From the IMG/VR virus record IMGVR_UViG_3300010885_008872, positions 1 through 31,334 of that record: DNA of 31,334 nt; one strand, given 5' to 3'. Positions 1,151 to 8,609 of this stretch are shown here, in pieces. The translations under genes and the position numbers were made by a program. Each line of letters opens with the position of its first letter. Position 1 is the stretch's first letter. This DNA is from a virus. The notes below the pieces were generated by a model. The model had not been told where the DNA came from, did not search any database, and saw only the letters and a program-made list of their open reading frames with translations.

Positions 1151-1271
1151 ATCTTTTGTTATATATTCGCTTAACTTTAATGGGGAATGGGAGTCTCCGT
1201 AAAAAACAACTTATTGCCACTTCATCACGTAGGACTCCCATTCCTCGTGGTGGATGTGGCTTTTTTAATTT
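1151..1271 (+). other. Structured intergenic region with interleaved inverted repeats
   Basis: Pair 1 is a perfect 12-bp inverted repeat: GGAATGGGAGTC at 1184-1195 and its complement at 1233-1244. Pair 2 is GCCACTTCATCACG at 1216-1229 with CGTGGTGGATGTGGC at 1246-1260, about 13 pairs with one mismatch and one bulge, followed by six T at 1261-1266. The right arm of pair 1 fills the 16-nt loop of pair 2. The RNA must therefore form either a pseudoknot or one of two exclusive hairpins, the second being a plausible terminator. The next gene starts at 1272. Possible roles are an attenuator, a structured RNA or an origin feature. Confidence 0.6.
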
Positions 1272-5151: not shown

Positions 5152-5402
5152 AAAACCATACTAAAATTTATTTGCAAGGAATGAAGTTTGACGTAACAGA
5201 TTTTATACCTTGTGAAATTTGTGGTAAACAAGCCGTAGACATACACCACATAGAGTCAAGAGGTATGGGTGGGACAAATACCAAGGATACGCTTGATAAT
5301 CTAATGGCACTATGTAGAAAATGCCATGTAGACCTTGGAGACATCGACCAATACAAAGACTATTTAAAAAGCATACATCAATTACAAATAAGCAGAAAAT
5401 GA
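5148..5402 (+). CDS. HNH endonuclease
   Basis: The 84-aa protein carries a complete HNH (beta-beta-alpha-metal) core: C22-x2-C25, DIHH with catalytic H33-H34, N51 and C56-x2-CH at 56-60. The Cys pairs bind a structural zinc, while the His/Asn residues bind the catalytic metal that cuts DNA. There is almost no sequence outside the nuclease core. Small phage HNH proteins often assist terminase in packaging, but this one lies 3.4 kb upstream of it, among DNA-modification-like genes. It overlaps both neighbours by 4 bp. Confidence 0.75.
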   Translation: MKNHTKIYLQGMKFDVTDFIPCEICGKQAVDIHHIESRGMGGTNTKDTLDNLMALCRKCHVDLGDIDQYKDYLKSIHQLQISRK

Positions 5403-5926
5403 TTAAGTACGAGAATATAAAAAAAATCAAGTCTAACCAAGATAATCCAAGAATTATCAAAGATGACAAGTTCTTTAAATTAGTAAAATCTATTGAAGAG
5501 TTTCCAAAAATGTTAGAGTTAAGACCTATTGTTGTAGATTCCGACATGGTAGTTCTTGGGGGTAACATGAGATTAAAAGCATGTATTGAAGCCGGACTTA
5601 AAAAAGTCCCAATTCTTATTGCAGAAGATTTAACTGAAGAACAAAAAAAAGAATTTATCATTAAAGACAATGTTTCCTTTGGCGAGTGGGATTGGGAAGT
5701 TTTAAATGCGTGGGAGGTGCCAATGCTTCAAGATTGGGGGTTAAATATATGGCAACCCGAAACTATGTACGAACCTAATGTAGACCCAACTGCGTCAAGT
5801 TCTATGGTAACAGATGCTGACATAGAAAAAACAGAGTCTAAAATGGGGTTTGAGCAAAACATTTCAATAACTACGGAAGTCATTTGCCCGGCATGTGGCG
5901 AAGAATTTATCATTAAGAAACAATGA
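5399..5926 (+). CDS. ParB-like nuclease-domain protein
   Basis: This 175-aa protein has a ParB/sulfiredoxin-type domain at about residues 5-95: NPRIIKDDKFFKLVKSIEEF, then LRPIVVD and the signature VVLGGNMRLKACIEAG. The segment KDNVSFGEWDWEVLNAWE follows, typical of phage ParB-like proteins usually found next to DNA methyltransferases; no methyltransferase is present here. The C-terminus ends in a lone CPACG knuckle. It starts in an ATGA overlap with the HNH gene. A partition role is unlikely without parA or parS. DNA binding or nicking, or a part in modification, is more plausible. Confidence 0.7.
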   Translation: MIKYENIKKIKSNQDNPRIIKDDKFFKLVKSIEEFPKMLELRPIVVDSDMVVLGGNMRLKACIEAGLKKVPILIAEDLTEEQKKEFIIKDNVSFGEWDWEVLNAWEVPMLQDWGLNIWQPETMYEPNVDPTASSSMVTDADIEKTESKMGFEQNISITTEVICPACGEEFIIKKQ

Positions 5927-6207: not shown

Positions 6208-6827
6208 TGAAAGCCGGAATTATAACTATAAATGGACGTGAAGCTTATTTAACCCCTTTGCTTGAACTATTAAAGATCAATAAAATAGAATATACTTTGT
6301 ATGTAGATATTGAACGCAATGGTCACATGTGGAACTATAATAGAATGTTTCACGACATGCTTTCAAAAGCAAAACAAAACGAACCAATCCTTTTATTAGC
6401 TGATGACGTTTTAATTCCAACTGATTTTAAAAATAGATTTTATGAAATTCACAATAAGGCTCGGAATAGTCTTTATTGTTTTTTTACCCGACAAAGGCAT
6501 TTAAAAAAAGCGTCTATCATTAACCAAGGGTACGTTACAAGTGTTCAAAGGGGAGGGTGGTACGATATCTGTGGAGTATTTATTAACCAACAAGAACTTC
6601 CAAAAAGGGTAGATAAATGGTATGAAGATATTGGACAACATACTATGACTAAAAATTGGAAAGCACATTATGACATGCGTGTTCAAGAATATTTAGTGTA
6701 TTATAATATCCCTTGGACAATATCTGTCCCGACTTTATGCGAACACGTAGGGGACGTTTCAACCCTTAATCATAGCATTGGTAAATCTATTCTATATGTC
6801 GAGGACTACGAAAAAATAACAAAATGA
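6207..6827 (+). CDS. Putative glycosyltransferase (GT-A-like)
   Basis: The 206-aa protein begins with a Rossmann-like strand and helix (KAGIITINGREAYLTPLLEL). Near residues 60-75 it has EPILLLADDVLIPTDFKNRF, which looks like the DxD-type nucleotide-sugar and metal site of GT-A enzymes. The length is short for the fold. It could transfer sugar to phage DNA bases, virion proteins or a host target. Tight overlaps with a ParB-like neighbour upstream and an IbrA-like enzyme downstream favour a DNA-linked role, but that is inference. The DD motif is the only catalytic evidence I can see. Confidence 0.5.
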   Translation: MKAGIITINGREAYLTPLLELLKINKIEYTLYVDIERNGHMWNYNRMFHDMLSKAKQNEPILLLADDVLIPTDFKNRFYEIHNKARNSLYCFFTRQRHLKKASIINQGYVTSVQRGGWYDICGVFINQQELPKRVDKWYEDIGQHTMTKNWKAHYDMRVQEYLVYYNIPWTISVPTLCEHVGDVSTLNHSIGKSILYVEDYEKITK

Positions 6828-7966
6828 ACATATACTTAAAAGAAAATGTGTGGGTAGCTGCTCAAAAAAGGGTTGCATGGATTTTTGACGAGTTTGAAAA
6901 TGTAGCGGTAGGGATGAGTGGTGGGAAAGATTCTACCATAGTTTACGAGTTGGCATTGATTGAAGCTGAAAAAAGGGGTAGACTTCCATTAAGTGTATTT
7001 TGGCTTGACCAAGAAGCCGAATGGAAAAACACCGAGTACTATGTTAAAAAGGTAATGTACGACAAAAGGGTTAATCCTATGTGGATGCAGATACCTTTTA
7101 AAATAAACAATGCTACAAGCCATACAACTGAAAACTTAAACATTTGGGGTGCGGGGGAGGAATGGATGAGAGAACAAGACCCGTTATCTTTTAAAGAGAA
7201 TGTTTACGGCACTAACGATTTTTACGATTTATTCAATGCTATCATAGGGTATCATTTTAAAGGCAAACGATTTGCACTATTAGGTGGGTTAAGAACTGAA
7301 GAATCTCCAACACGATTTATAGCTTTGACGGGTGCGATTACTTACAAGCATGTTACTTGGGGGAAAATCTTAAATAAGAAACAAGACCATTATACTTTTT
7401 ATCCTATTTACGATTGGACTTATATGGACGTATGGAAAGCAATCTATGATAACAATTGGGACTATAATAAGATTTACGATTACATGTATCAGCATGGCTA
7501 CCCCGTTCGTGACATGAGAGTTAGTAACTTGCACCATGAAACGGCAATCAAGCATTTATTGTTTATGCAAGAAATAGAACGGGAAACATGGGTAGCACTT
7601 TCAAAACGATTACAAGGGATAAACACAGTTAAACATTTATCTAAAGCGTCAATGACTTGTCCCGACAAATTACCCGAAGCGTTTGAATCATGGCTTGAAT
7701 ACCGAGATTACTTAAATGACAACCTTGTATCAGAACCGGTGACTCGGGCATTCTTTAACCATAAATTTGAAATGATGGAGGAAAAATACATGGACATTAA
7801 GCACAAAGACGAAATGTACAAAGCACACATCAAAACTATATTAGTAAACGACAAAGAATTTACCAAGCTTGGCAATTGGGAGAACAACTTTGAAATAGTG
7901 GCATGGCGAAAATGGAAAAACAAAGGAGTACTACCACCCGTAAAAAACAAATACATACATGGATAA
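6824..7966 (+). CDS. IbrA-like PP-loop ATPase (PAPS-reductase family, DUF3440-like)
   Basis: The 380-aa protein carries the PP-loop MSGGKDST at residues 31-38, which binds ATP and releases pyrophosphate. A second family landmark is LLGGLRTEESPTR near residues 167-179. The C-terminal half has the look of DUF3440/IbrA proteins, and the next gene is its usual partner IbrB. The ECGxH signature of true sulfonucleotide reductases is absent, so it is probably not an assimilatory PAPS reductase but an adenylating or sulfur-handling enzyme. DndC of DNA phosphorothioation belongs to the same superfamily. It overlaps both neighbours by 4-8 bp. Confidence 0.75.
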   Translation: MNIYLKENVWVAAQKRVAWIFDEFENVAVGMSGGKDSTIVYELALIEAEKRGRLPLSVFWLDQEAEWKNTEYYVKKVMYDKRVNPMWMQIPFKINNATSHTTENLNIWGAGEEWMREQDPLSFKENVYGTNDFYDLFNAIIGYHFKGKRFALLGGLRTEESPTRFIALTGAITYKHVTWGKILNKKQDHYTFYPIYDWTYMDVWKAIYDNNWDYNKIYDYMYQHGYPVRDMRVSNLHHETAIKHLLFMQEIERETWVALSKRLQGINTVKHLSKASMTCPDKLPEAFESWLEYRDYLNDNLVSEPVTRAFFNHKFEMMEEKYMDIKHKDEMYKAHIKTILVNDKEFTKLGNWENNFEIVAWRKWKNKGVLPPVKNKYIHG

Positions 7967-8609
7967 CGTAAGACAATCAATCGAAACCTTCATAGGCAAA
8001 AACCCTATCGCAAACATAGAACTAATTAAAAGTTGGCTTTATGAACTAACCCCAATCAAACAACCTATCAGTTTTGTGAGATGGGTGCCTATCGAAAAAA
8101 TACAAGCTAACGATTACAACCCCAACTCGGTGGCATCGAAAGAAATGCAGTTGCTCTACACGTCTATTAAGCACGATGGGTATACTCAACCGATTGTAAC
8201 TATATACGACCAAGCCATAGACAAATACATCATTGTAGACGGCTTCCACCGATATTTTACTTGTAAAGCTAACCCCGACATACTCGAACGAAACTTCGGA
8301 TGCTTACCAATTGTCGTAATAGAGAAAGACATTAACGATAGAATGGCTGCAACCGTCAGACACAATAGGGCAAGGGGGGCACACTCGGTAACGGGAATGA
8401 GCAACATGGTTTTTGAAATGCTAAAGAATGGTTGGAAAGATTCCGATATTTGCAATGAACTTGGAATGGAACCCGAGGAACTATTAAGACTTAAACACAT
8501 AACGGGGTTTAGCAAACTATTCGCCAATAAAGAATTTAGTCCCGCATGGAAGACTATGACCATGATAAAACTTGAAAAACAATACGAAAAGAATGAGTGC
8601 AAATCATAA
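7959..8609 (+). CDS. IbrB-like ParB-domain protein, partner of the IbrA-like gene
   Basis: The 216-aa protein has a ParB-like domain at about residues 40-140: NDYNPNSVASKEMQLLYTSI, VDGFHRYF (residues 93-100) and ATVRHNRARGAHSVTGMSN. A helix-turn-helix follows (about 155-182: WKDSDICNELGMEPEELLRL). This matches the IbrB family, which is nearly always paired with IbrA. It overlaps the IbrA-like gene by 8 bp and the terminase small subunit gene by 17 bp. IbrAB were named as regulators of E. coli Ig-binding genes; in phages the role is unsettled. DNA binding is likely; nuclease action is possible. Confidence 0.75.
   Translation: MDNVRQSIETFIGKNPIANIELIKSWLYELTPIKQPISFVRWVPIEKIQANDYNPNSVASKEMQLLYTSIKHDGYTQPIVTIYDQAIDKYIIVDGFHRYFTCKANPDILERNFGCLPIVVIEKDINDRMAATVRHNRARGAHSVTGMSNMVFEMLKNGWKDSDICNELGMEPEELLRLKHITGFSKLFANKEFSPAWKTMTMIKLEKQYEKNECKS

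Follow-up and report, generated by a model that had tools for sequence, protein, structure and literature searches.

Why should two inverted repeats interlock immediately ahead of a phage replication gene? The question arises at a locus near the start of a viral DNA stretch of 31,334 nucleotides (IMG/VR record IMGVR_UViG_3300010885_008872), here called the window. An earlier note had described a perfect 12-bp pair, 1184-1195 with 1233-1244, interlocked with a second pair, 1216-1229 with 1246-1260, that runs into six T and ends 5 nt before a start codon. A repeat scan recovered the first pair exactly, the second stands in the sequence with its T-run and its spacing, and the right arm of the first does lie within the loop of the second. 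As argued below, the element is probably a promoter-proximal kissing-loop transcription attenuator in the 5' leader of a phage replication operon, and the collected evidence points to an RNA switch, not described before, that would serve phage replication.

Anatomy and folding of the window element

All parts of the element lie on the plus strand. A putative promoter comes first: TATATTCG at 1162-1169 matches the consensus TAnnTTTG, which we take to be the Bacteroidota-type -7 box, and the same box is found at two further loci (L094 and L096). The 5' hairpin, HP1, occupies 1176-1206, with a core stem (1180-1186/1194-1200) and outer A/T pairs that are optional in the window; its placement comes from the minimum free energy (MFE) fold, a kissing-hairpin detector and alignment to model R1, described below. 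Its variable recognition loop, ATGGGAG (1187-1193), is the exact complement of the loop of the second hairpin, CTCCCAT (1235-1241), and a single-stranded linker joins the two hairpins (1207-1215, or 1201-1215 where only the core stem forms). The second hairpin, HP2 (1216-1260, arms 1216-1234/1242-1260; MFE fold and detector), is stable and followed directly by the T6 tail (1261-1266), which is the anatomy of an intrinsic terminator. Five nucleotides beyond the end of the tail at 1266 lies the ATG, at 1272, of a DUF6291 gene (1272-1949; PF19808, Pfam E 9.1e-23). Seen against these parts, the first pair of the earlier note (S1, 1184-1195/1233-1244) is an extended loop-loop contact, consisting of the 7-nt contact and five more pairs that would cut into both stems, while the second (S2, 1216-1229/1246-1260) leads straight into the T-run. 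Elsewhere in the window, an imperfect 17-nt direct repeat (82%) flanks the element at 1149-1165 and 1281-1297, and the phage carries a PAPS reductase gene (6824-7966; PF01507, phrog_2302) and two ParB-like proteins (5321-5926 and 7959-8609; phrog_620, phrog_2159), for which the ParA search found no partner.

The interleaving is exceptional by several measures. A stem scanner scored the interleaved pair at -38.3, compared with -26.7 for the best unrelated pair on either strand of the window and -34.3 for the best of 5000 local shuffles. The fold of 1172-1268 reaches -32.5 kcal/mol (z = -4.0), a value matched by none of 200 shuffles, and the kissing-hairpin detector gave the element a score of 78, against a maximum of 55.2 in 200 shuffled windows. 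The earlier note had called this by far the most structured non-coding part of the window, which holds for the interleaving but not for 90-nt folding energy, where the element (-31.3) barely exceeds the next best site elsewhere in the window (-30.0).

The MFE fold of 1172-1268 consists of HP1 (1180-1200) and HP2 (1216-1260), both with loops of 7 nt, and the description as kissing loops fits this fold better than interlocked long stems do. Folding also depends on length. An RNA covering 1180-1250, where the 3' arm of HP2 is incomplete, folds best as the long S1 hairpin (-28.6). With extension to about 1268 the two-hairpin fold takes over, although for a transcript starting at 1150 the S1 hairpin is still the best fold at 1275 (-36.1). 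Because the best fold changes as the RNA lengthens, the window copy has, in these predictions, the makings of a co-transcriptional switch.

A family with complementary loops

Relatives of the element were sought first around its neighbors and then independently of them. Loci collected with the upstream ORF (719-1150) carry promoter, HP1, HP2, T-run and ATG in that order, and in these the 7-nt loop of HP1 is complementary to the 7-nt loop of HP2. Applied to 126 loci (0.92 Mb, both strands), many of them near relatives of one another, the detector returned 21 matches scoring at least 60, where shuffles gave 0.33, and 31 scoring at least 55, where shuffles gave 1.7; the window ranked top, and 30 of the 31 fall on the plus strand, that of the gene used to collect the loci. 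The independent test was a scan of viral contigs for HP1 alone, with the loop left free except for its first base. Among 76 class I matches, an exact 7-nt complement followed within 140 nt 59 times, where 0.6 were expected; one of these, L151, arose by chance, and the other 58 share a scaffold (offset 36-39). The 17 misses comprise two elements cut by a contig end (L158 and L178) and 15 sequences lacking the scaffold. Loop complementarity is thus kept in every complete class I scaffold copy.

This constancy of pairing goes together with variety of sequence. The 58 copies carry ten HP1 loop alleles: GTAAGAG (19 copies), GTTGCGG (11), GTAGCAG (8), GTGAGAG (6), GTCGCAT (6) and GTAGGCT (4), with GTCGGAT, GTGAAGG, GTCGCAG and GAAACGG found once each. 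L045 (GTAGAAG), the L063 type (GTACGAG) and the window (ATGGGAG) raise the total to 13, but the rows are related by descent, and allele counts do not equal independent events. Covariation in relatives had been named beforehand as the key test, and the pairing proved to be conserved. Across a set of 35 different class I elements, of which 34 came from the scan and one is L045 (the window was left out), 96.9% of cells are paired, compared with 33-47% in slid versions. Six of the seven pairs of the loop-loop helix have changed on both sides, with no one-sided change and no GU, and the only failing row, L201, is shifted in the alignment. The HP2 stem of the same 35 elements, in contrast, varies through many GU steps. 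A T-run is present in every class I row aligned; conservation of the HP1 inner stem is no independent evidence, as the search pattern fixes it.

In one respect the relatives depart from the window. The flanks of the loop contact are mismatched in class I, such that it can hardly be extended past 7 bp; a long antiterminator duplex could therefore form in the window without being a feature of the class. No viral contig gave an exact match to the 12-bp pair of the window with its arms 30-45 nt apart. The three further copies of the ATGGGAG 7-mer were rejected as a signal, since the total of five is in line with chance (2.65 expected). Support extends to three parts of the earlier proposal of a pseudoknot or terminator switch: that the element acts as RNA, that its hairpin next to the replication-type gene is a terminator, and that long-range pairing competes with it. 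The long stem of that proposal gives way to the loop-loop contact of exactly 7 nt seen in class I relatives.

Does the window belong to this family? Model R1, built from 35 viral elements with the window excluded, finds 1175-1266 with E 5.7e-6 and 34.5 bits when run with filters off, and its next-best match in the window has E 0.14; with default filters the element was absent among the matches and was recovered only when these were off. The window shares with class I the 7-nt complementary loops, the promoter box, the T-tail and the start codon close behind. It differs in that S1 reaches 12 bp, whereas pairing in class I is commonly confined to the loops, a common trait of the class rather than a condition of membership. 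Judged by match and traits together, the window element is a divergent class I member.

Two other scaffolds share the architecture. For class II (L014/L133 type), an HP1 scan found an exact 9-nt complement in 72 of 120 among the matches listed, with at least six alleles and at least 53 distinct sequences in the 72; a promoter-like box lies in the 25 nt upstream of 70 of these 72 elements and of one of 48 non-elements, again among the matches listed, and 44 of the 45 elements examined have a T-run. For class III (L013/L117 type) the complement was present in 10 of 10, with two alleles. In both of these classes the search pattern fixes part of the loop, and covariation was tested at the free positions only. 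The class I model matches L014 at E 0.065 and L133 at E 0.22, with no match in L013 or L117, and by sequence comparison the kinship of the three classes is one of architecture only. Four loci (L227, L289, L282 and L284) have a stand-alone class II HP1 hairpin and loop (AGGTAGTAGC or AGGTTGTAGC) followed by T4, which resembles a terminator and may be a chance palindrome or a decoy.

Collectively, these three scaffolds, with more than 100 copies in viral contigs, apparently form an unlisted RNA family. Rfam searches with the element gave no relevant family match, only unrelated matches at chance level, and no match to the curated P4 CI RNA and c4 RNA models that Rfam presumably includes. BLASTN of a related element against phage and plasmid records gave no full match, and the parts of the literature that were searched held no description of the element.

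The genomic setting is consistent across loci. Of 40 class I elements, 39 have a TAnnTT[TC]G box in the 40 nt ahead of them (3.9 expected), 4 nt away in 38 cases and 3 nt away in one, which would put HP1 at or near the 5' end of the RNA; at the 40 loci listed, 0-13 nt separate the element from the start codon behind it. The gene behind had been taken for a replication gene. The first genes differ between relatives (DUF6291, HTH_36, Lin1244_N and several lacking a Pfam match), and we read these families, from their nature and their place before a helicase, as replication initiators. A DnaB helicase (DnaB_C) is encoded in 17 of 20 records, with no match in the window phage, G007 and G012. Among 23 records, 19 have an R1 match at E <= 0.001; the remaining four are that of the window and G001, G005 and G006, whose HP1-pattern matches are chance. 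Only one record was found with two elements, the 62-kb G003, where they lie at 855-949 and 59614-59707 (L224 and L225), carry different loop alleles and precede two different first genes.

The DUF6291 gene itself has 61 viral relatives, while a scan of genome contigs found three DUF6291 loci only and the name was absent from the literature searched. Upstream of many of these relatives lie interleaved stems of unrelated sequence, and at the strictest cut 12 of the scanned regions were unbeaten in 200 shuffles each. Some of these stems end in a T-run and others have no clear terminator. To the latter belong L002 (4287-4389), L003 (4900-5000), L015 (4890-5000) and L098 (3900-4000), in all of which the sequence immediately ahead of the start codon repeats the second stem's 3' arm, exactly or nearly; this arrangement suggests a version of the switch that works on translation. 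Compact H-type pseudoknots also occur shortly before DUF6291-type genes (L010, L035, L121, L134 and L136). Within the window's DUF6291 gene, GATAAT repeats (1581-1625) encode DNDNDN, and a similar acidic repeat is present in most DUF6291 relatives read; the GATAAT repeats could possibly be iterons of an origin within the gene.

Proposed mechanism and rival readings

Given an anatomy, a conserved loop pairing and replication-type genes that can be read directly from the DNA, we infer attenuation by a terminator that the loop contact would oppose. By default, HP2 would terminate most transcripts, freeing a leader RNA of about 90 nt. Where the HP1 loop instead pairs with the emerging HP2 loop before the 3' arm of HP2 is made, this pairing, of up to 12-14 bp in the window, would delay or prevent closure of the terminator, and polymerase would then read through into the replication genes. 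Occupation of the HP1 loop would free HP2 and shut the operon, and the simplest occupants would be the HP2 loops of leader RNAs already made.

Whether the two loops kiss within one molecule depends on the linker. In class I, 18-20 nt separate the HP1 inner stem from HP2, or 9-11 nt if the outer stem forms. By standard RNA geometry, the linker would have to be stretched almost fully for a straight stacked complex to form in cis, and kissing in cis may be strained by so short a connection for about 30 stacked base pairs. Pairing in trans is for this reason a serious option. The terminated leader may act on replicon immunity or copy control: where a second genome has the same loop allele, it would bind that genome's nascent leader and so shut (or open) the replication operon there. 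The loops would then be specificity determinants, as in plasmid incompatibility. We regard this as a possibility worth keeping, well short of an even chance.

Much of what bears on trans action is the way in which loops evolve. No loop differs in 12 class I pairs with scaffold differences below 5%, but loops differ by 14% where scaffolds differ by 5-10% and by 23% where they differ by 10-15%; across the range of 5-20%, loops differ about twice as much as scaffolds. Changes come in blocks, for example three of seven positions with three compensations at a scaffold difference of 6.3%, and with no GU intermediates. Further, in their best flanking pieces L063 and L081 are 94% identical upstream (391 nt) and 93% identical downstream (699 nt), yet their elements cannot be aligned: here the leader has been exchanged as a cassette. 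Block changes and cassette exchange fit a specificity determinant, as do the ten alleles on one scaffold, 13 in all, and the two different alleles of G003. Against this, a single two-element record is weak evidence, the related rows keep allele counts from being independent events, and drift that is neutral and compensatory, or that proceeds under strong selection against intermediates, may vary loops too. Nor is lysogenic immunity evident, as tyrosine integrase, serine recombinase and ParA were found in none of 20 records, several of them fragments. In its boldest form the trans reading would make these elements widespread "replication immunity" RNAs, exchanged as cassettes, each private loop allele recognizing the nascent leaders of like phages only. 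We advance this tentatively; if true, it would amount to RNA-only control of copy number or superinfection in phages with no evident integrase.

The same observations weigh on a purely structural role in cis, in which kissing compacts the 5' end, protecting it from RNase or tuning the terminator, and loops vary by neutral compensation alone. Such a role is favored by the cis complementarity, which no complete scaffold copy lacks, and by the short and constant spacing between promoter box and HP1. Neutral compensation sits poorly, however, with block-wise loop changes that left no GU or one-sided intermediates, whereas HP2 shows many, and with the replacement of a cassette between similar flanks, and we consider a purely structural role rather unlikely.

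Could the loops instead be targets of an antisense RNA made from the opposite strand, as in attenuators of the pT181/pIP501 type? The shared parts are a replication-gene leader, kissing hairpins and a terminator, and pT181 does employ a kissing interaction between hairpins (PMC3753616). In the class I elements, however, both pairing partners lie in the same RNA, and the promoter box is not enriched on the opposite strand (11 of 40 elements, 7.5 expected), which, as an indirect test for antisense RNA, weighs against it; we hold this reading to be very doubtful. Autoregulation by the DUF6291 protein, binding a pseudoknot in its own leader much as T4 gp32 acts on its own, would account for interleaved stems before many DUF6291 genes, some of which have no T-tail. 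We rejected it as highly improbable, given that the first gene behind the element varies, unrelated genes following the same scaffold, and that a protein would find no constant sequence in the loops to recognize. An origin of replication or DNA cruciform, raised earlier from inverted repeats adjoining a replication gene, found no support and is hardly credible: a strand-specific T-tail and upstream promoter box, together with the many GU pairs that HP2 retains, indicate RNA, and different first genes stand behind the same element.

Two regulatory classes were also rejected as candidates. A riboswitch would have a conserved ligand-binding sequence, but here the paired loops vary and Rfam gave no match. 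A leader-peptide attenuator would have a conserved leader ORF, but the ATG of HP1 is in several alleles followed directly by TAG, TGA or TAA; ORF 1180-1302 of the window looks fortuitous.

We therefore return to the kissing-loop attenuator as the preferred reading. On this account the family would gate replication operons through swappable, exactly complementary loops, and would offer a well-defined system in which control of phage replication by RNA can be tested. Its natural set of matched loop pairs could also serve as orthogonal transcription attenuators.

Comparison with known systems

Individual features of the element have counterparts in several plasmids and phages. Fully complementary 7-nt loops are known from RNA I and RNA II of ColE1; there, sense faces antisense in the control of a primer, while in the window element both loops belong to one sense RNA and act, we propose, on a terminator. 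The repZ leader pseudoknot of IncB and IncI-alpha plasmids, in which control of the replication gene depends on pairing between a loop and a site downstream, acts on translation, in contrast to an element with a T-tailed terminator. In P1 and P7, variable loops of the c4 RNA, whose target is the ant leader, set the specificity of phage immunity; variable loops are common to c4 RNA and the present element, which nevertheless has no Rfam match. pIP501 combines kissing hairpins with a terminator in its rep leader.

The closest known system in its parts is pT181, where kissing hairpins and termination are described in the leader of the rep gene (PMC3753616). Both pT181 and pIP501 employ antisense RNA from the other strand, however, and none is evident for elements of the window type. 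As regards logic, phage P4 offers the nearest likeness: an RNA derived from the leader (CI RNA, with seqA and seqC) controls premature termination before the replication genes by pairing with complementary sites in the leader (PMC4825925). Pairing of a leader RNA and termination before replication genes would be common to P4 immunity and the window element, and action in trans, if it occurs, would be that of P4. The two differ in construction, since the transcript is processed to yield the CI RNA, whose pairing sites lie both upstream and downstream of it, whereas in the window element the partners are loops, carried by two neighboring hairpins of which one is the predicted terminator.
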